27,430 nt of DNA. Source: a virus. The stretch spans positions 1-27,430 of the IMG/VR virus record IMGVR_UViG_3300030108_001889. The stretch is one strand, 5' to 3'. The translations under genes and the position numbers were made by a program. Shown piece by piece: positions 11,497-21,846 of the stretch (position 1 is the first letter of the stretch; every line of letters starts with the position of its first letter). Under the pieces are notes generated by a model. The model had not been told where the DNA came from. It saw only the letters and a program-made list of their open reading frames with translations, and made no database searches.

Positions 11497-12230
11497 ATTT
11501 GACTAGCATCTTGCTTTGCTTTGTATGACCACATCCACGAGTCAACATTTGGAAAGAATAAAGAAGCAATGTAATGCTTATCTTCACTTAGTGATAATAG
11601 TTTCTGTATACTAAATGCCACTGTTTGCAGTTGTTTTTTATGTAATGACAAATTTTTAAGATTGAATTTTTTGTGCATCTTCGGTGATGCAAAAAATAAA
11701 TCCACTTTCTTCTTTGGATATGCCATTGAATACAAAGCCATTTGCCTCATTTGTGCCTCTGTAGGCTTTGATGGCATTCTAACTGTTGTCTTTAAATCCA
11801 CTATTGTATCTTTAAATAAAAAATCTATGTAGCCAATAATAGGTATGGGCAAGTCATCTAACTGTACTTCTACCTTTTGTTGATAACTTTCTAAGTTTTT
11901 ATATTTAAAATTTTTGTCTAACACCTCACCAAAACTAGCTAAAGTGTTACGTTCTTTTTTTACCTTATCATCATTTAGATCAATACCAGCTTCGCCACAA
12001 AGACCAATAAACTTAGTATCGAGTTCTAAAAAATCAAAAGAACCTTTTTCATATTTCTGTGCTAACACATGCTCTTGTGCAATACCACGAATAGCACCAG
12101 CACCACTATCTGATCTAATGCCAAATAAATATCTCATAATCCATTGTGGTGGATCTGTGATGTAGGTGTTGATGCTACTTGGGGATAAGTAGTTTATATT
12201 ATGTACCCTAAATGGGTTGTTGGATATCAC
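11481..12230 (-). CDS. RecB/Cas4-like PD-(D/E)XK exonuclease
   Basis: 249 residues. The N-terminus has the LSPSSINTYITDPPQWIMRY pattern seen in RecB-family nucleases, followed by a helix with a conserved His (His54 in AQEHVLAQ). The metal site then reads GYIDFLF (Asp136) ... IVDLKTT (Asp145, Lys147). A Gln in MRQMALYS follows, as in RecB motif III. Such phage proteins are thought to act like a 5'-3' exonuclease (T7 gp6 counterpart) in recombination and host DNA degradation. The start is a GTG overlapping the upstream TGA (GTGA); no later ATG would keep the domain whole. No Fe-S cysteine set was seen. Confidence 0.88.
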   Translation of the reverse strand: MISNNPFRVHNINYLSPSSINTYITDPPQWIMRYLFGIRSDSGAGAIRGIAQEHVLAQKYEKGSFDFLELDTKFIGLCGEAGIDLNDDKVKKERNTLASFGEVLDKNFKYKNLESYQQKVEVQLDDLPIPIIGYIDFLFKDTIVDLKTTVRMPSKPTEAQMRQMALYSMAYPKKKVDLFFASPKMHKKFNLKNLSLHKKQLQTVAFSIQKLLSLSEDKHYIASLFFPNVDSWMWSYKAKQDASQIWSLK

Positions 12231-13156
12231 TGTACTTCTTCTGTATCAATATCAATGAATTCCTCTATTACTTCTTGATCGGCTTCACTAACATCACCTT
12301 GTCTTTTTTGTACGTTAGTATCCCACTCTTTACAAACCCAATCGTTAAAACCTTTTATGAACATGCTAAACTCACCAAAAAGTTTTTTATCTTCATCGTT
12401 TATTTCAAACGACTCAGTGTAATCAACTTCAACAATAGGTGTGTAGAATGAACTACCATTAGGTAACTGATTAGCATGTGTACCATTTAAATGCATAGCA
12501 TGTTGAATTGGTAATCTAGACTTCTCTGATAACTCTGAGAATAAATCACCAAAAGTTTTAAAAGCATCCTTGTTGTCAACTTCCCAAATGAAAGGAGAAT
12601 CTGAAAAGTTTTCAACAGGGACACCTTTTTCATCTACAGGATCTTCCATAGATACTGTTCCAAAGAGCACTCGTACTCGTTTGATTTGTCTTATTAAATC
12701 TTGTGTGCTTTTGGGCAAGGCTTGAAAGTCTTCAACATAACCTGATGGCTTACCACAGTTGAACCTACCTGTGTTATCTTTCAGATCAATGTTGAGACTA
12801 TCAGCCATGATGGTTCTGTGGAAAGAGCCTTTTTTCTCTCCACCTTTAGCACCCTGATTAGCAACATATCTTTTTAGCATGAAACGCTGCATGAAAGGTC
12901 TGATGGTAATATTCTTGGAAAAAATGTAAAAAGAAGAATCTTCGCTTACAACCTCTAATCTATAAGCTCCACCCTCAATAACTTCTACGTTTGTGGGTTT
13001 ACCATTAACCTCAACCTTACCCATAATGGGTGAGTGCCAAATTCTTAATCTATTTAATGTGCTAGTTTTTTTGGGTGCTTTTTTCTCTGTAGCCATTCCC
13101 ATTGCTCTAGCTAAGTCTTCGTAATTATCTACGTTTAAATTTGCTAATTCGCTCAT
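12227..13156 (-). CDS. Probable single-stranded DNA-binding protein
   Basis: 309 residues with AAGGAGTTACA before the ATG. The middle is rich in beta strand and aromatic residues (SFYIFSKNITIRPFMQRFML, then several charged loops). The last 25 residues are strongly acidic (EVIEEFIDIDTEEVQ), like the partner-binding tails of SSB and T7 gp2.5. It lies between DNA polymerase and the recombination exonuclease, the usual place for such a protein. A clear OB-fold motif cannot be proven by eye, so the assignment rests on tail, context and size. Confidence 0.75.
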   Translation of the reverse strand: MSELANLNVDNYEDLARAMGMATEKKAPKKTSTLNRLRIWHSPIMGKVEVNGKPTNVEVIEGGAYRLEVVSEDSSFYIFSKNITIRPFMQRFMLKRYVANQGAKGGEKKGSFHRTIMADSLNIDLKDNTGRFNCGKPSGYVEDFQALPKSTQDLIRQIKRVRVLFGTVSMEDPVDEKGVPVENFSDSPFIWEVDNKDAFKTFGDLFSELSEKSRLPIQHAMHLNGTHANQLPNGSSFYTPIVEVDYTESFEINDEDKKLFGEFSMFIKGFNDWVCKEWDTNVQKRQGDVSEADQEVIEEFIDIDTEEVQ

Positions 13157-13186: not shown

Positions 13187-15220
13187 TCAAGAGACATCTT
13201 TAGTGTCAAGCCAGTTGTCCCCCATCTTTGCTTCCAAAAGCAAAGGCACATTAAAATCAATACCATAGTTGGTATCAATTATTGCTTTCATATTTTCGTT
13301 TGTATTATTTATTATGTCGATTACGTTTGTTTCTTCATTCGGATGTACATCAATAACAATAGAATCATGCACCGTATTTACAATACATGATTTAAAATTT
13401 TGTAGTTGATCATCAATAGCTAATAAAATCAAAGGCACAATATCAGCAGTAGCAAAACTTTGTACTGGGTAGTTTTTTATTTGTGTAAAGTGAGACACAC
13501 CACCGTTTGTTCTTCGTTTAACATCCGGGAAAGAAAACTCTCGACCAGAAGGTATTTTAATCTTCTGTGTGTTTAAAGCCTCTTTAGCCAATCGGGTATG
13601 CCATAGTGCGATTTCTTTGTACTTTTTTGTAAACTGTTCGTAATATTTTGCTTCAGAAGTCGTTCTCCCAAATCCTGTTGCTCCATAGAGAGGGGCAAAG
13701 GTGTGAGCTTTCGCTTCTTGCCTCGTAATCTTTTGACCTGATTGCGTAATGACACTAGCAGTGTATGCATGAACGTCAAAGCCATCTTGTATCTCCTTCA
13801 TTGCTGTTTTGTCTTGTGATAAATAAGCTGCAGTTCTAAACTCTAACTGAGCAAAGTCAGCTTCTAGAATTTTCCCACCTTGCCATCTAGAAACAAATAC
13901 TTTTTTTACAGGAAATGTACCACCTCTTGGCATATTTTGCATGTTAGGATCAGCACCACTAAATCTTCCTGTTGATGTTCTGTGTTGTAAAAGTCTTACA
14001 TGTAACATTCCATCTGTCTTAGTATGTATTTTTATTCCCTCTACAAATGAAGATAAGTATGTATCTAATGCTGATAATCTTTGTATATCAGTTAAGAAGT
14101 TAAATGCAGGCACACTGTCATTTCTTTTTGTGACATGTTGTAGCACTTCTAACATTTTTTTATTAACACTAAAACCATTAGCACTTACCCACTTTACATT
14201 TGGTGGATTGAATTTAAATCCTGCTACTTTCCCCACAGAAATAAAAGAATAGCCATTCCCATTGCAGTCAGGACATTTAGGTAATCGAGCATAAAGAGTT
14301 CCATCCTTTTTCACCTTTCTAATTACACCTGATCCAATACAAGTTCTACACTTTTGTGCTTTTGTTTTATAAACTATATCGGTATTTTCTTTTATAGTTT
14401 GATTGAAATTACTTTTTTCCATAGCATGTGCAAAGTTATTCATCCACGTTGATTTATCTTTTGGCTTTCTACTGTAGAGAATCCATGACATCTGTTCTGG
14501 ACTATTTAAATTTATAGGTGTGTCACCCATAAGTTCTTTTACTTGCCCTTGTAATCTTTTTTCTATCTCACTTTTTTCATTTTGAAATTCTTGTTGAACA
14601 GACTCAAGAGTATCTACATCTACCTTGAAGCCTCGTTTGTATATCTTTGCAAGGGCAACAGATACTTTGTTAGTAAACAAAACAGTATTCATCAACCCAG
14701 CATCTTTTGGTGTATTCAATCTATAGTATTGTTTATCGCTTAGTTGTTGTGTTGCATGTAGGTCTGCTGAAAGATAACTAGACAGTTCTGCTCTTGGAAT
14801 CTCATCTGTAGCAAATCCTTGGGCAAAATAATTCTTTAACGTGTCTTCTTTCTTTGTCTCTAAATCATATCTCTCTGCACAATCTTTGAGGTGCAACGGT
14901 TCTTTGATACCTCTTTGCAAAACATACTCTGTAAGCATAGTGCAAAAGATAGGACCATCATAATTAAATCCTGATTCCCAAAGCCACATAAGATCATAAG
15001 CAATGTTATGACCGATTAGGATAGTAGCTTTGTCTAGTAACTCTTGAATGGTTACATCGTAATTGTTTTGATAAGTCCCATCCATATTAAATAAATATTC
15101 ATTACCACGATCATCTAAACACCCTACCATAACTAGCTTGTTTGATGGCTCAAATGGATCGAGGTGCATCTTACCATCTCGTTTGGTTACTGTGTTCTCT
15201 ACATCTACTACCAACTTCAT
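13187..15220 (-). CDS. polA: Family A DNA polymerase with 3'-5' exonuclease and a DnaJ-type zinc insertion
   Basis: 677 residues. Exonuclease motifs: Asp6/Glu8 (VVDVENT), Asn72/Asp76 (GHNIAYDL), Tyr149/Asp153 (YLSAD). Polymerase motifs: A at 453-461 (EADFAQLEF, Asp455, Glu460); B as R500-K504-F508-Y512-G513; C at 617-619 (VHD). The residue equivalent to E. coli Pol I position 762 is Phe508. Between exonuclease and palm, residues 291-323 hold two CxxCxGxG motifs. This insertion matches the partial DnaJ central domain described in HMO-2011-type phage polymerases. It should be the replicative polymerase, working with the helicase, primase and SSB around it. Its ATG overlaps the upstream stop (ATGA). 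Confidence 0.96.
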   Translation of the reverse strand: MKLVVDVENTVTKRDGKMHLDPFEPSNKLVMVGCLDDRGNEYLFNMDGTYQNNYDVTIQELLDKATILIGHNIAYDLMWLWESGFNYDGPIFCTMLTEYVLQRGIKEPLHLKDCAERYDLETKKEDTLKNYFAQGFATDEIPRAELSSYLSADLHATQQLSDKQYYRLNTPKDAGLMNTVLFTNKVSVALAKIYKRGFKVDVDTLESVQQEFQNEKSEIEKRLQGQVKELMGDTPINLNSPEQMSWILYSRKPKDKSTWMNNFAHAMEKSNFNQTIKENTDIVYKTKAQKCRTCIGSGVIRKVKKDGTLYARLPKCPDCNGNGYSFISVGKVAGFKFNPPNVKWVSANGFSVNKKMLEVLQHVTKRNDSVPAFNFLTDIQRLSALDTYLSSFVEGIKIHTKTDGMLHVRLLQHRTSTGRFSGADPNMQNMPRGGTFPVKKVFVSRWQGGKILEADFAQLEFRTAAYLSQDKTAMKEIQDGFDVHAYTASVITQSGQKITRQEAKAHTFAPLYGATGFGRTTSEAKYYEQFTKKYKEIALWHTRLAKEALNTQKIKIPSGREFSFPDVKRRTNGGVSHFTQIKNYPVQSFATADIVPLILLAIDDQLQNFKSCIVNTVHDSIVIDVHPNEETNVIDIINNTNENMKAIIDTNYGIDFNVPLLLEAKMGDNWLDTKDVS
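14252..14350 (-). other. DnaJ central-domain-like zinc motif encoded inside DNA polymerase
   Basis: Residues 291-323 read CRTCIGSG ... CPDCNGNG, with 21 residues between the second and third cysteine. Each half is an exact CxxCxGxG, the unit of the DnaJ cysteine-rich domain; two units can bind one zinc. The segment lies after the exonuclease domain, where T7 polymerase starts its thumb, so it may act as a substrate, thioredoxin-like or partner-docking element. Confidence 0.85.
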
Positions 15221-15693
15221 TCTAATCTCTCCTGCAATTTATCTATTGGTAAATTAAAACATGTTGCCCTTACAGTATAATTATTGGAAGGGTCAACTTC
15301 CCCTTTTTTTAAATAAGTTGCTTTATCAAAGTATTCTTGTTTTTTCATGACACCAAGATACCAACCTACACTAAAGTCTTTCTTGACTCTTGTGAATGCG
15401 TAATAGTCACACTCTTGCTTTGCATTGTATTCTGTAATGCTACACTCATAGTGTGGTAAGGGTGTGACACTTGTTTGTTTAGTTTTAACATCTACTTTGT
15501 ACCCATTTATTAATAGATCATAGTTGTATGTATTATCCCATTCACCACCTAACACAAACAACACAATCTGTTCTCCTATGAAACCTGCTAAGTTTCCACC
15601 ACCATTTAATATGGAGTTTGTTAATCTTCCTACTTCTACTGCTTTCTCTCTAGCTTTGAGAAACATATCTTCCGATACATTTACTTCGATCAA
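15217..15693 (-). CDS. PD-(D/E)XK-like nuclease, putative
   Basis: 158 residues. The pattern GFIGEQIVL (Glu41), YDLLINGYKVDVKTK (Asp59, Asp68, Lys70) fits the restriction-endonuclease-like core, with an early Glu in a helix and a D...(D)xK on two strands. The rest alternates strands and helices. The only start that gives this frame is a TTG (AAGGT upstream) immediately after an in-frame stop; an internal Met at residue 10 is the alternative. It overlaps helicase and polymerase by 4 bases on each side. Role inferred: DNA processing at the replication fork. Confidence 0.75.
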   Translation of the reverse strand: MIEVNVSEDMFLKAREKAVEVGRLTNSILNGGGNLAGFIGEQIVLFVLGGEWDNTYNYDLLINGYKVDVKTKQTSVTPLPHYECSITEYNAKQECDYYAFTRVKKDFSVGWYLGVMKKQEYFDKATYLKKGEVDPSNNYTVRATCFNLPIDKLQERLE

Positions 15694-16916
15694 GATTCAT
15701 ACCTTCCTAGTTTATAATTCAATTCACAAGTTATGACACCATGCCAACCTGTTAATTTATTCTTTACGATATTTAAATGCCTTTGTAAATCTTCTACATC
15801 ACCATCATCTTGCTTGGGTGGATTCTTAGCTATCAATATCATAAGATCTGCTTCCGCTGCTTTACCAGTTCTACTGCCTTCCATCATAGATTGATTAAGT
15901 AAAACTTTGCCTTCTGCATCAGCAGACAGTTGTGACATGTAAAAGACTGCACACTCATGTTGTTTGGCAATCTGTCTTGCATGTATCGCATTTGCTTTGA
16001 GTGCTTCATCTGCTCTTGCAAAGCCTTGTGACCGAGCAAACTTGTCACCCATATCAAGCAGTAACACATCAGGCTTGTATGATTTACACACACTTTCTAC
16101 CCATGACATATCTCTGCCTGTAGCATCTTTAATTTTAATTTTATCTTTTATTGGTGCATACAAGTCTCGTGCTCTTGATGGATTCTTTTTAACTTGTTGC
16201 ATAGTCATACCAGTAGCTGCAGTAAGATATCTTGCACCGACTCTGTGACTACCTTCTTCGTTACATAACACAATACAGTTTGCACCTTGATGTGCTAAAC
16301 CGTTTGGTGATGCAATCATACTTGCATGGAAAGATGTTTTACCAGTATTGGGTCTAGCACCCACTTCAATCAGATGCCCAGCATTCACACCGTTAATCAT
16401 ACGTGTGAGTGAAGGTATATTGAAATGCCATCTAGCTTCAAGATCATTCTTGGCTAACAATGTCTCAATCTCAATGTCATCCCATTCTACATTTAGGTCA
16501 GGGGTGAAGTCATCATTGTGTTGTTCTAGCAATAGTCGAAGTGGCTCAAGACTAGTTTGCACACCATTCACATAGTCAAAGCCTAAGTTAGCTATGTCCT
16601 CACCTACAACTTGTTGGAATAGTTTTGATAGCACCTCTTGTGCTACATCACCACCCAATGGTTGTTCTTTTTTAATTGTTTTGAAAAGTATTGAGTATGC
16701 TTGTTTCTGTGCAGTTGTCATTTGAGGATGACTAGATATAAACAATGCTTCTATTTCATCCGGGGATAGAGTTCTCTCATACCTATCCATTGCTAAATCT
16801 ATTGACTGTTTGATCTTCCTAGCATCTTTGCTAAACAATCTATCAGGACACTTTGCACCACGATGTTCATCGTAGAACTCCTTGTCCATCAAACTTCTTA
16901 ATAATGCTAATTCCAT
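15690..16916 (-). CDS. DnaB-like replicative helicase (RecA-type P-loop ATPase)
   Basis: 408 residues. An N-terminal helical part (1-150) precedes a RecA-fold motor: Walker A GARPNTGKTS at 186-195, NEEG at 219-222, Walker B DVLLLDMGD around 283-291, and YMSQLSADAEGK plus SRTGKAAEADLMI later, as in DnaB/T7 gp4 helicases. It should unwind DNA ahead of the polymerase as a hexamer. In T7 the primase and helicase are one protein; here the primase is the separate gene just upstream, 3 bases away. GGAGTAAAAT precedes the ATG. Confidence 0.92.
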   Translation of the reverse strand: MELALLRSLMDKEFYDEHRGAKCPDRLFSKDARKIKQSIDLAMDRYERTLSPDEIEALFISSHPQMTTAQKQAYSILFKTIKKEQPLGGDVAQEVLSKLFQQVVGEDIANLGFDYVNGVQTSLEPLRLLLEQHNDDFTPDLNVEWDDIEIETLLAKNDLEARWHFNIPSLTRMINGVNAGHLIEVGARPNTGKTSFHASMIASPNGLAHQGANCIVLCNEEGSHRVGARYLTAATGMTMQQVKKNPSRARDLYAPIKDKIKIKDATGRDMSWVESVCKSYKPDVLLLDMGDKFARSQGFARADEALKANAIHARQIAKQHECAVFYMSQLSADAEGKVLLNQSMMEGSRTGKAAEADLMILIAKNPPKQDDGDVEDLQRHLNIVKNKLTGWHGVITCELNYKLGRYES

Positions 16917-16919
16917 ATT

Positions 16920-17711
16920 TTACTCCTTCGGGGTTAGGTTATATAAATTAGTTATGTCTTTTTTATTATAATATTTTAAATCGTCAGTTAGTCTTAATAC
17001 CTTTATGTTGTTCACGTATCCTCTTAACTCTTTTGCAAAAGCAAAAATCTTAGGCATAGCATCGGGGTCAAGTGCTATAATAATTGTAGAGAACCGTGAA
17101 AGAAAATCCTTGTGTTCTTCTGAGAGTGAAGTTCCAAGAATAGCAACCCCGACGTATGCATTGCCACCAACTCTAGCAGCACTAACACAGTCCTCTACAA
17201 CAACACCGACAGTACCACTGCCATAATGATATGGCAAGGTATTATTTCCGTATCGTTTCCATTTGGGTAGTCGTGATGTTAATGCTCTTCCTGTCGCATC
17301 TACAACTTTGTTGCCATCCTTAATTAGAAAGACAACCCTATCTTCTTTTACATCGTAATGTAAATCTAGCTCCGTTGGATCTAGACTCCATGTATTGCAA
17401 AACTGTATTAACTTTTTTCTATTATTATGGGGAACAATATATTCGGGTAACACAAAGGCAGTGCATGGAGGAGATTCATTTTCTTTCTGTGACTTTGCAG
17501 TCTTAATATCATCAGCAGAAAGTCTTACCTTTGTATTACCCTTTATGTTACAAGAAGCCTTGTAACAATTCCATACTAACATTCCCATGTTATTTGTAGC
17601 AGTAAATGTTTTATAACCATTACAAATGGGGCAGTTAAGTCTCTTGGTATGTCCTATAGGTATGTTTAAGTCTAACATGTACCCCCGGACAAAGTTAATG
17701 TCATTTACCAT
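16920..17711 (-). CDS. DNA primase with zinc-binding and Toprim domains
   Basis: 263 residues. The N-terminal zinc finger uses Cys27, Cys30, Cys49 and Cys54 (CPIC ... CYKASC). A Toprim-like core follows, with VVVEDCVSAARVG (Glu173) and IIALDPDAM (Asp215, Asp217). This is the layout of the T7 gp4 primase half: zinc finger for template recognition and Toprim for metal-dependent RNA primer synthesis. It is followed by the helicase, which suggests the two act as a complex. The start ATG is 5 bases after the recombinase gene stop. Confidence 0.92.
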   Translation of the reverse strand: MVNDINFVRGYMLDLNIPIGHTKRLNCPICNGYKTFTATNNMGMLVWNCYKASCNIKGNTKVRLSADDIKTAKSQKENESPPCTAFVLPEYIVPHNNRKKLIQFCNTWSLDPTELDLHYDVKEDRVVFLIKDGNKVVDATGRALTSRLPKWKRYGNNTLPYHYGSGTVGVVVEDCVSAARVGGNAYVGVAILGTSLSEEHKDFLSRFSTIIIALDPDAMPKIFAFAKELRGYVNNIKVLRLTDDLKYYNKKDITNLYNLTPKE

Positions 17712-20284: not shown

Positions 20285-20719
20285 TTATTTACTCCTTTCA
20301 ATATCCCATCTATAAAATATGTGATCATCTATTCTAGTTACATAAGTTTTAGTCTCTGCCCAACTAGGATTAACATAGTGGGCATGGTAGTGTGTAGCAC
20401 CCTCAACAAAGTCATCTAGATGTCCATTATACACACCGTTAGCAACATGCATAGCATCTCCCCATGCTTTCTTTTGTTTAGGTTTATCACTTTTCCCATC
20501 ACAATACCAACTAAATTGACATTTATTTTTAATTGGTAATGATGGTTTCCACTTATATGTTAAGCCTTGCTTTACTACATCGCAGACATTGTTGGGATAC
20601 CTAGGATCTTTGACCCTATTCATCACAACTTGTGCAACTGCCACTTGCCCAATGAAACTTTGATTTTTAGCTTCGTGGTATACATTAAGTGCTAGACATA
20701 CGATTGCTTCCATTAACAT
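20285..20719 (-). CDS. Cell wall hydrolase, SleB type (endolysin candidate)
   Basis: I chose the ATG at 20719 (AAAGGAAT in front; overlaps the methyltransferase stop as ATGTTAA). The longer frame from 20764 has no ribosome binding site and would run into the upstream gene. The 144-residue protein is almost wholly a SleB/CwlJ (Hydrolase_2) domain: NVYHEAKNQ with catalytic Glu16, VAVAQVVMNRVKDPRYPNNV, CQFSWYCDG, and THYHAHYVNPSWA near the end. Such enzymes cut peptidoglycan glycan strands. There is no signal peptide, so export to the periplasm would need a holin. The nearby small membrane genes are candidates. Confidence 0.92.
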   Translation of the reverse strand: MLMEAIVCLALNVYHEAKNQSFIGQVAVAQVVMNRVKDPRYPNNVCDVVKQGLTYKWKPSLPIKNKCQFSWYCDGKSDKPKQKKAWGDAMHVANGVYNGHLDDFVEGATHYHAHYVNPSWAETKTYVTRIDDHIFYRWDIERSK

Positions 20720-21846
20720 TGTTTTATTCCTTTCAATATATGTGCGATGACATCTACAGTCCAACCATTCCCAATCATCTTGTATCGCTGAGTATTGGAA
20801 ACACCTTCTGTGTAGTTGTCAGGCAAAGTTTGTAATCTCTCACACTCTAGTGGTGTAAGTTTTCGGTACAAGAAGTCTTCACTAACCACCACATTATCTT
20901 TTTGTACTGTGGTAAGACAGTTAGACTTTGCACCATCGCTAACCTCAAGTTGCGTAGTAAATGGCAACTCTAGTTGGTTATCCTTTCTAGTTCCATGCTC
21001 ATCAAGCCTACGATTAACAATGCGACCAATGGCAACCTTTGGTTGTCTGTGTCCACCTTGCATAGTCGTAAGGGTAGGTGACTTACCTTGAGGTGAATAC
21101 ACTCTCTTGATAATATCAAATCCCTTGATGTCATTAGCCATGCCTACTTGTATAGGCTTCTTGCTTTTGACAAACGTAGGTATCTGCCCCTTGTACATAG
21201 ATGCAGTAAGACAGTGTGCCTTGTCATCATCAACAGACTTGACTAGATCTCCTCGCACTCTGCCACACCATGTACCCTTGAGGTAGTTGGGTGCTTCGTC
21301 AAAGGGCAAGTCCTCTAGTATATCAGCTAGAACAATACCTTTGTCCTCTAGAGGTGGTATGGGTATCTGCTTATAATAATCACCCACAAGTTTGCCCCAC
21401 CAATAGAGCCTAAACCTCTTTTGACCAGAAACCCACTTAGAGTCTAAGGCTTGTGGCTCAAACCCAATCGCTTCAGATATAATATCTTGAGACTTCTGAG
21501 ACATACGCACATTCTCTAGTAATACATACTTAGGCTTAACTGCATCTAGCACACGTATGAAGTCAAAGAATAATTTGCTACGTGGGTCATCAAAGTTAAG
21601 CTGATGTCCCGCAAACGAAAATCCCTGACAAGGGCTGCCACCCATCAGCAGATCAATGCTACCTTTAGTAGGCATTTTGATCTTAGTTACATCTCCCCAT
21701 TGAAATGTATCTGGGAAATTCTTTTGTGTAATCTGCATAGCATACTTGTCAATCTCACAAGCAAAGTAGTTCTCTACATCAATGTCGGCACGTTGTAAGG
21801 CTAACTGCCCACAACTCATGCCATCAAATAAACTTAGTACGTTCAT
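20713..21846 (-). CDS. DNA (cytosine-5)-methyltransferase
   Basis: 377 residues with the ordered C5-methyltransferase motifs: I (LFDGMSCG, SAM binding, residues 6-13), IV (GGSPCQGFS, catalytic Cys73), VI (ENVR at 111-114), VIII (QKRFR at 142-146), and IX/X at the C-terminus (LTPLECERLQTLPDNY, then GNGWTVDV). A variable region for target recognition lies at about 160-320. No restriction endonuclease gene is next to it, so it appears to be an orphan enzyme that may protect phage DNA from host restriction or mark DNA for regulation. It overlaps the gene before it by 4 bases and the hydrolase after it by 7. Confidence 0.95.
   Translation of the reverse strand: MNVLSLFDGMSCGQLALQRADIDVENYFACEIDKYAMQITQKNFPDTFQWGDVTKIKMPTKGSIDLLMGGSPCQGFSFAGHQLNFDDPRSKLFFDFIRVLDAVKPKYVLLENVRMSQKSQDIISEAIGFEPQALDSKWVSGQKRFRLYWWGKLVGDYYKQIPIPPLEDKGIVLADILEDLPFDEAPNYLKGTWCGRVRGDLVKSVDDDKAHCLTASMYKGQIPTFVKSKKPIQVGMANDIKGFDIIKRVYSPQGKSPTLTTMQGGHRQPKVAIGRIVNRRLDEHGTRKDNQLELPFTTQLEVSDGAKSNCLTTVQKDNVVVSEDFLYRKLTPLECERLQTLPDNYTEGVSNTQRYKMIGNGWTVDVIAHILKGIKQC

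Follow-up and report, generated by a model that had tools for sequence, protein, structure and literature searches.

What purpose is served by two DnaJ-like cysteine motifs in the middle of a phage replicative DNA polymerase? The question is raised by a polymerase gene in a 27,430-nucleotide stretch of DNA (hereafter, the window) drawn from a 32,960-base virus record (IMG/VR record IMGVR_UViG_3300030108_001889), where it stands beside two other replication genes.

13,187-15,220, minus strand: replicative family-A DNA polymerase with 3'-5' exonuclease, 677 amino acids; PF00476 and PF01612 both above cut-off
15,690-16,916, minus strand: DnaB-like replicative helicase (phrog_19, E=3.8e-45; 72% identical to HMO-2011 gp11)
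16,920-17,711, minus strand: DNA primase (phrog_47, E=1.1e-20; 57% identical to HMO-2011 gp10)

The polymerase matches the Pfam model PF00476 at 177.1 bits over residues 347-671 (cut-off 34.3) and PF01612 at 27.1 bits over residues 55-163 (cut-off 23.6), and the catalytic residues D6, E8, D76, Y149, D153, D455, R500, K504 and D619 were all found in it. Its nearest named relative is the polymerase of HMO-2011, at 63.4% identity, and in a maximum-likelihood polymerase tree the window is nested within the HMO-2011-type clade beside isolates, with an SH-aLRT of 100 for a set of 17 rows, among them HMO-2011, CRP-345, CRP-2 and the window. Primase (56.8% identity to HMO-2011), helicase (72.1%) and polymerase follow the same gene order as in HMO-2011, and homologues of HMO-2011 gp08-gp13 and gp15-gp18, which include integrase, primase, helicase, endonuclease I and ribonucleotide reductase, lie near the polymerase on the minus strand with their order kept. 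The preliminary description of this DNA had assigned it to the HMO-2011 group and had called for a phylogeny against polymerases of that type; the tree puts the window inside the group, not outside it, and the 63% identity and replication gene order bear the assignment out. Judged by polymerase phylogeny and replication genes, then, the marine phage of the window is HMO-2011-type, a statement best kept to these genes, as PMC8528129 describes the HMO-2011-type replication module combined with other structural modules in some phages.

The polymerases of HMO-2011, CRP-1, CRP-2, CRP-3, CRP-345 and HTVC033P share with the window their clade, the insert described below, its four cysteines and the replication gene order. 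From HMO-2011 the window shows no difference in kind, apart from the 63% identity and an extra ORF of 158 amino acids between helicase and polymerase (15,217-15,693, minus strand), which has no Pfam or PHROG match and no counterpart between the HMO-2011 helicase and polymerase. Elsewhere in the window, a likely cytosine-C5 DNA methyltransferase (20,713-21,846, minus strand; GGSPCQGFS motif read by eye) adjoins a cell wall hydrolase (PF07486; 20,285-20,764, minus strand). HMO-type polymerases were also met on contigs of 55 kb and 63 kb that occur under identical names in two MAGs differing in phylum (Flavobacteriales and Marinimicrobia), and these look like mis-binned viral contigs.

The cysteine motifs themselves occupy a short stretch of the polymerase gene.

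14,252-14,350, minus strand: putative zinc module, C291-G323, CRTCIGSG ... CPDCNGNG, from translation and from ligand conservation in 219 relatives
14,348-14,350, minus strand: codon of C291
14,339-14,341, minus strand: codon of C294
14,273-14,275, minus strand: codon of C316
14,264-14,266, minus strand: codon of C319

Residues 291-323 read CRTCIGSG-VIRKVKKDGTLYARLPK-CPDCNGNG and map exactly to 14,252-14,350, with the cysteine pairs located between the exonuclease match (55-163) and the polymerase match (347-671). A shuffled protein of the same composition (8 Cys, 39 Gly) would by an analytic estimate contain 2.7e-4 CxxCxGxG units, and two units would be expected at about 3.5e-8. The Pfam model DnaJ_CXXCXGXG (PF00684) scores 23.4 bits against the whole protein and 29.2 bits against an excised 54 amino acids, in both cases below its curated cut-off of 32.7. 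The preliminary description had placed two exact CxxCxGxG units here, between exonuclease and polymerase domains, and had matched them to the DnaJ-type central domain reported for HMO-2011-type phages; translation and Pfam matches agree on the placement, and the two exact units agree with the reported domain. PMC6918029 and PMC9038755 describe part of the DnaJ central domain, bearing a pair of CXXCXGXG motifs, in HMO-2011-type polymerases, and these two papers together with PMC8528129 recognise the group by it; the motif is thus a published hallmark of HMO-2011-type phages, and its observation here is not new. As to function, the descriptions there go no further than recalling the part that DnaJ plays when lambda replicates (PMC9038755). 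The present analysis adds where exactly the insert sits, which residues replace the ligands, how charge is distributed and which relatives lack zinc; taken together, these favour a thumb clamp that works independently of thioredoxin.

A search of 50,697 phage records for the zinc module and its flanking sequence recovered only HMO-2011-type polymerases, apart from two further records with weak partial matches, one of them annotated as a phage dnaJ. The literal form of the motif is a less faithful marker. The published membership test, two exact CXXCXGXG units, is satisfied by 158 of the 219 relatives examined and loses the other 61, CRP-2, CRP-207 and CRP-345 among the failures, mostly through drift of the first glycine of the second unit. 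Across the aligned sequences, the four-ligand pattern together with G296 and G323 is a better marker of the group than the literal rule.

Whether the cysteines bind metal can be judged from what replaces them. Across 219 distinct relatives, C291, C294 and C319 are invariant, and the position of C316 is occupied by Cys in 214, Asp in four and His in one, so that the ligand positions are conserved and are swapped only for other metal ligands; G296 and G323 are likewise invariant and G298 is kept in 218, while the four other cysteines of the polymerase are replaced freely. Since C316 gives way only to residues that can serve as zinc ligands, metal binding is favoured over disulfides, and we strongly infer from this pattern that the cysteines act as metal ligands and that zinc is bound at one site. 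The single site follows from the correspondence of the four cysteines to the half of the DnaJ domain that comprises motifs 2 and 3. The 'double zinc motif' of the preliminary description is therefore right in its two CxxCxGxG units, but these most likely form one zinc site, half of a DnaJ domain.

The five C316-variant sequences in the alignment keep all nine of the catalytic residues checked, and a pattern scan found the Asp form in 24 viral-contig stretches, some of them from contigs already sampled. Close relatives with Asp as the third ligand carry NKDPxCNGLGY, and those with His carry TKHLDC. All C316D variants have at least one His in a Y[HN]F[HN] sequence a few residues past the fourth cysteine, and this His may be a replacement ligand; as YHF also occurs in some ordinary variants, the idea of a compensating His is only suggestive.

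A likeness to DnaJ invites the reading that the polymerase carries a DnaJ fragment that recruits the DnaK of the host, in the way known for DnaJ from the replication of lambda. A profile built from 41 modules, searched against solved structures, did rank the zinc domain of E. coli DnaJ first (E=4e-4), with the fingers of Q antiterminators lower and without significance (E=0.05), and the link to lambda is raised in PMC9038755. At E values up to 0.01, 40 of the 41 module sequences match the Pfam DnaJ model, but 38 match the Q-like phrog_6060, and Anti-TRAP and GRXCR models also match the module. The cysteine-rich domain of DnaJ/Hsp40 (1exk) resembles the window module in having two CxxCxGxG units around a hairpin, the module corresponding to DnaJ motifs 2 and 3; DnaJ, however, is a co-chaperone with four units and two zinc sites, whereas the window polymerase has only two of the four units, scores below the Pfam cut-off and gives no Pfam match to a J domain at E up to 10. 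The finger of phage Q antiterminators (7ubj, 4mo1; phrog_6060) is a CxxC ... CxxCxGxG hairpin of nearly equal span, although host protein and process differ. With one DnaJ zinc site present instead of two, the J-domain match absent and an equal likeness to zinc hairpins that are not chaperones, recruitment of DnaK seems highly improbable. As a sign of chaperone function, the DnaJ resemblance is rejected, given the matches to Q antiterminator, Anti-TRAP and GRXCR models. The DnaJ label given earlier is accurate as a sequence resemblance, but one shared with other zinc hairpins such as those of phage Q antiterminators, and judged by these profiles the module looks like one type of zinc hairpin and not like DnaJ in its chaperone capacity.

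Another way to approach the function of the module is through its position in the polymerase fold. Thumb helix H1 of family-A polymerases starts with the motif [FIV]Nx[NSG]S, as seen in the Pol I and T7 structures. We used this motif, together with an AlphaFold2 model of the window polymerase (mean pLDDT 90.8; 79-93 in the insert), to place the following features.

14,474-14,500, minus strand: thumb helix H1, residues 241-249, with the motif INLNSPEQMSWILY, in common with Pol I FNLSSTKQLQTILF; helix in the model
14,162-14,473, minus strand: predicted thumb-tip insert, residues 250-353, between H1 and H2, from the model and from H1-to-TGR spacing
14,276-14,326, minus strand: predicted basic hairpin between the CxxC units, residues 299-315, VIRKVKKDGTLYARLPK; K302, K304, K305, G307 and K315 largely conserved
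14,123-14,161, minus strand: thumb helix H2, residues 354-366; helix in the model

The order in the model is helix H (202-231), H1 (241-249), the insert, H2 (354-366) and helix I (370-399). The spacing from NGxxxD to H1 is 40 residues in the window, 35 in E. coli Pol I and 104 in T7, and that from H1 to TGR is 181, 88 and 93, respectively. By sequence and model, therefore, the window polymerase has an insert of about 100 residues after H1, between H1 and H2, whereas the thioredoxin-binding domain of T7 lies before H1 and has no equivalent at that point in the window polymerase (40 residues against 104); the two are not the same insertion. An hhalign profile alignment with T7 partly overlaid the two inserts, an overlay that we did not follow: in the window polymerase no H1 comes after FNPPN, the model has H1 at 241-249, and motif and spacing are contrary to it. 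Searches with the whole model (Foldseek and VIA-align) recovered Pol I, Pol theta and Pol nu structures and were uninformative on the insert itself, and a search of a viral structure library returned phage PolA-type matches.

The gene 5 polymerase of T7 remains a useful comparison, being, like that of the window, a phage replicative family-A enzyme with a positively charged thumb insert of about 70-100 residues; its insert stands before H1, lacks the zinc motif and requires thioredoxin, while that of the window stands after H1 and has the zinc motif. One could suppose that the cysteines form a docking site for thioredoxin or glutaredoxin, or a redox switch reacting with either, and so a counterpart of the T7 domain, given that both inserts are in the thumb, that four cysteines are present and that HMO-2011-type genomes possibly encode a glutaredoxin. 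The absence of the insertion before H1 nevertheless leaves docking of the T7 kind unsupported, and the insertion site rules it out; the occurrence of Asp or His in place of C316 makes sense for a metal ligand and not for disulfide chemistry, so that for thioredoxin or redox readings at large we see only the slenderest chance. The module had been described as lying near the site where T7 polymerase binds thioredoxin, which is true loosely but not of the position relative to H1; of the accompanying suggestion of a processivity or partner-docking module, the general idea is retained here as a probable direction, without T7-type thioredoxin docking.

A further trait of the insert is its charge. 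Its net charge is +12 to +13, against -8 for the remainder of the polymerase, and across the family the insert averages +12.7 with a minimum of +7; the thioredoxin-binding domain of T7 has +7, against -20 for the rest of that enzyme. Basic residues of the T7 processivity insert contact the DNA backbone in simulations (PMC5984650), and a Klenow thumb mutant is reported to have reduced DNA affinity and processivity (Minnick 1996, as cited in PMC10061031). From the charge pattern, the T7 parallel and the Klenow mutant we infer a thumb-tip clamp, in which a basic beta-hairpin module with a single zinc would be set between thumb helices H1 and H2. The two CxxC pairs would share a single Zn ion and stiffen the hairpin at its base, keeping the loop, rich in lysine and arginine, at the tip of the thumb, which is where family-A enzymes hold newly made duplex. 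The result would be a built-in clamp for product DNA, giving the enzyme higher DNA affinity and processivity with no need of thioredoxin; it may additionally receive the acidic tail of an SSB-like protein of the phage. We regard this reading, tail docking included as an option, as evenly poised between right and wrong. Motif, position, conservation, charge and phage group are shown by the sequences; DNA contact, processivity and partner docking by the insert are what the reading proposes. The tip of the hairpin, the least confident part of the insert in the AlphaFold2 model (pLDDT 79), counts against it, as does the partial overlay with the T7 insert in the profile alignment.

Relatives in which the insert lacks zinc bear on this reading in both directions. 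The R8W- and N37-type polymerases and those of ICP2, MEP402 and QDWS535, which the tree places as a sister group, also have an insert at the H1-H2 site, 50-55 or 119-124 residues long and devoid of the cysteine pairs, so that the insertion is not special to the HMO-2011 group. These phages (R8W-/N37-type Autographiviridae; Zobellviridae, with ICP2 and MEP402) share the thumb site with the window, and in several of the zinc-less inserts a basic hairpin can be recognised, as in FKGGKRAGEGKTK and YKSGKRMGEPRYS. The N37 insert, with a net charge of -1, shows that not every sister insert is basic and counts against a clamp. A model of one zinc-less relative, made from ten sequences, has a pLDDT of 70 and an insert that is mostly beta at a pLDDT of about 80-89. 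In MEP402, ICP2 and QDWS535 the polymerase is split over two ORFs, with an ORF of 77 amino acids between the halves in MEP402. As sister phages have their inserts at this very site without zinc, the insert is probably older than the zinc, and the simplest history on these sequences would be an old thumb-tip insert to which an ancestor of HMO-2011 added zinc; loss of zinc in the sister lineage, where the tree has long branches, would be the alternative.

That sister polymerases manage without zinc at this site, and that non-ligand positions in the CxxC units vary freely, would also suit a purely structural role, in which zinc steadies a large loop and the module touches nothing important. The strong conservation of the loop residues K302, K304 and G307 and of the charge speaks against such a brace, which we consider improbable.

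The positive charge is less decisive in favour of DNA, as it fits docking of an acidic tail equally well and to that extent counts against a clamp. A candidate for such a tail is encoded next to the polymerase.

12,227-13,156, minus strand: gp13 homologue with acidic C-terminal tail, 47.7% identical to HMO-2011 gp13

The C-terminal tails of gp13 are mostly acidic in isolates, as in the window, and the C-terminal tail of the T7 SSB binds the thioredoxin-binding domain of its polymerase (PMC7699545), which together make tail docking the main alternative, or addition, to the clamp. The hairpin would then mainly bind the acidic tail of gp13, the helicase or a host factor, with little direct DNA contact, and the polymerase would be tethered at the fork; contact between a thumb tip and SSB has been modelled for another family-A polymerase, according to PMC10061031. 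The gp13 homologue could possibly be an unrecognised single-strand DNA binding protein and docking partner, but it has no Pfam match and no recognised SSB domain, and the tail of HTVC033P is only weakly acidic (6 acidic and 4 basic residues of 30). Docking as the main function is thus a possible reading, though a rather unlikely one.

Returning to the zinc-braced clamp, its placement between H1 and H2, distinct from the T7 site, frames a direct test: does a zinc-braced hairpin take the place of thioredoxin in processivity? More broadly, and tentatively, though with a real chance of being right, the H1-H2 insert of many phages, which often includes a basic hairpin, may be a kind of thumb clamp that is independent of thioredoxin and that has been locked by zinc in the abundant marine HMO-2011 lineage. 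If so, these phages would have a self-sufficient replicative enzyme, built on a structural solution unlike the thioredoxin dock of T7.
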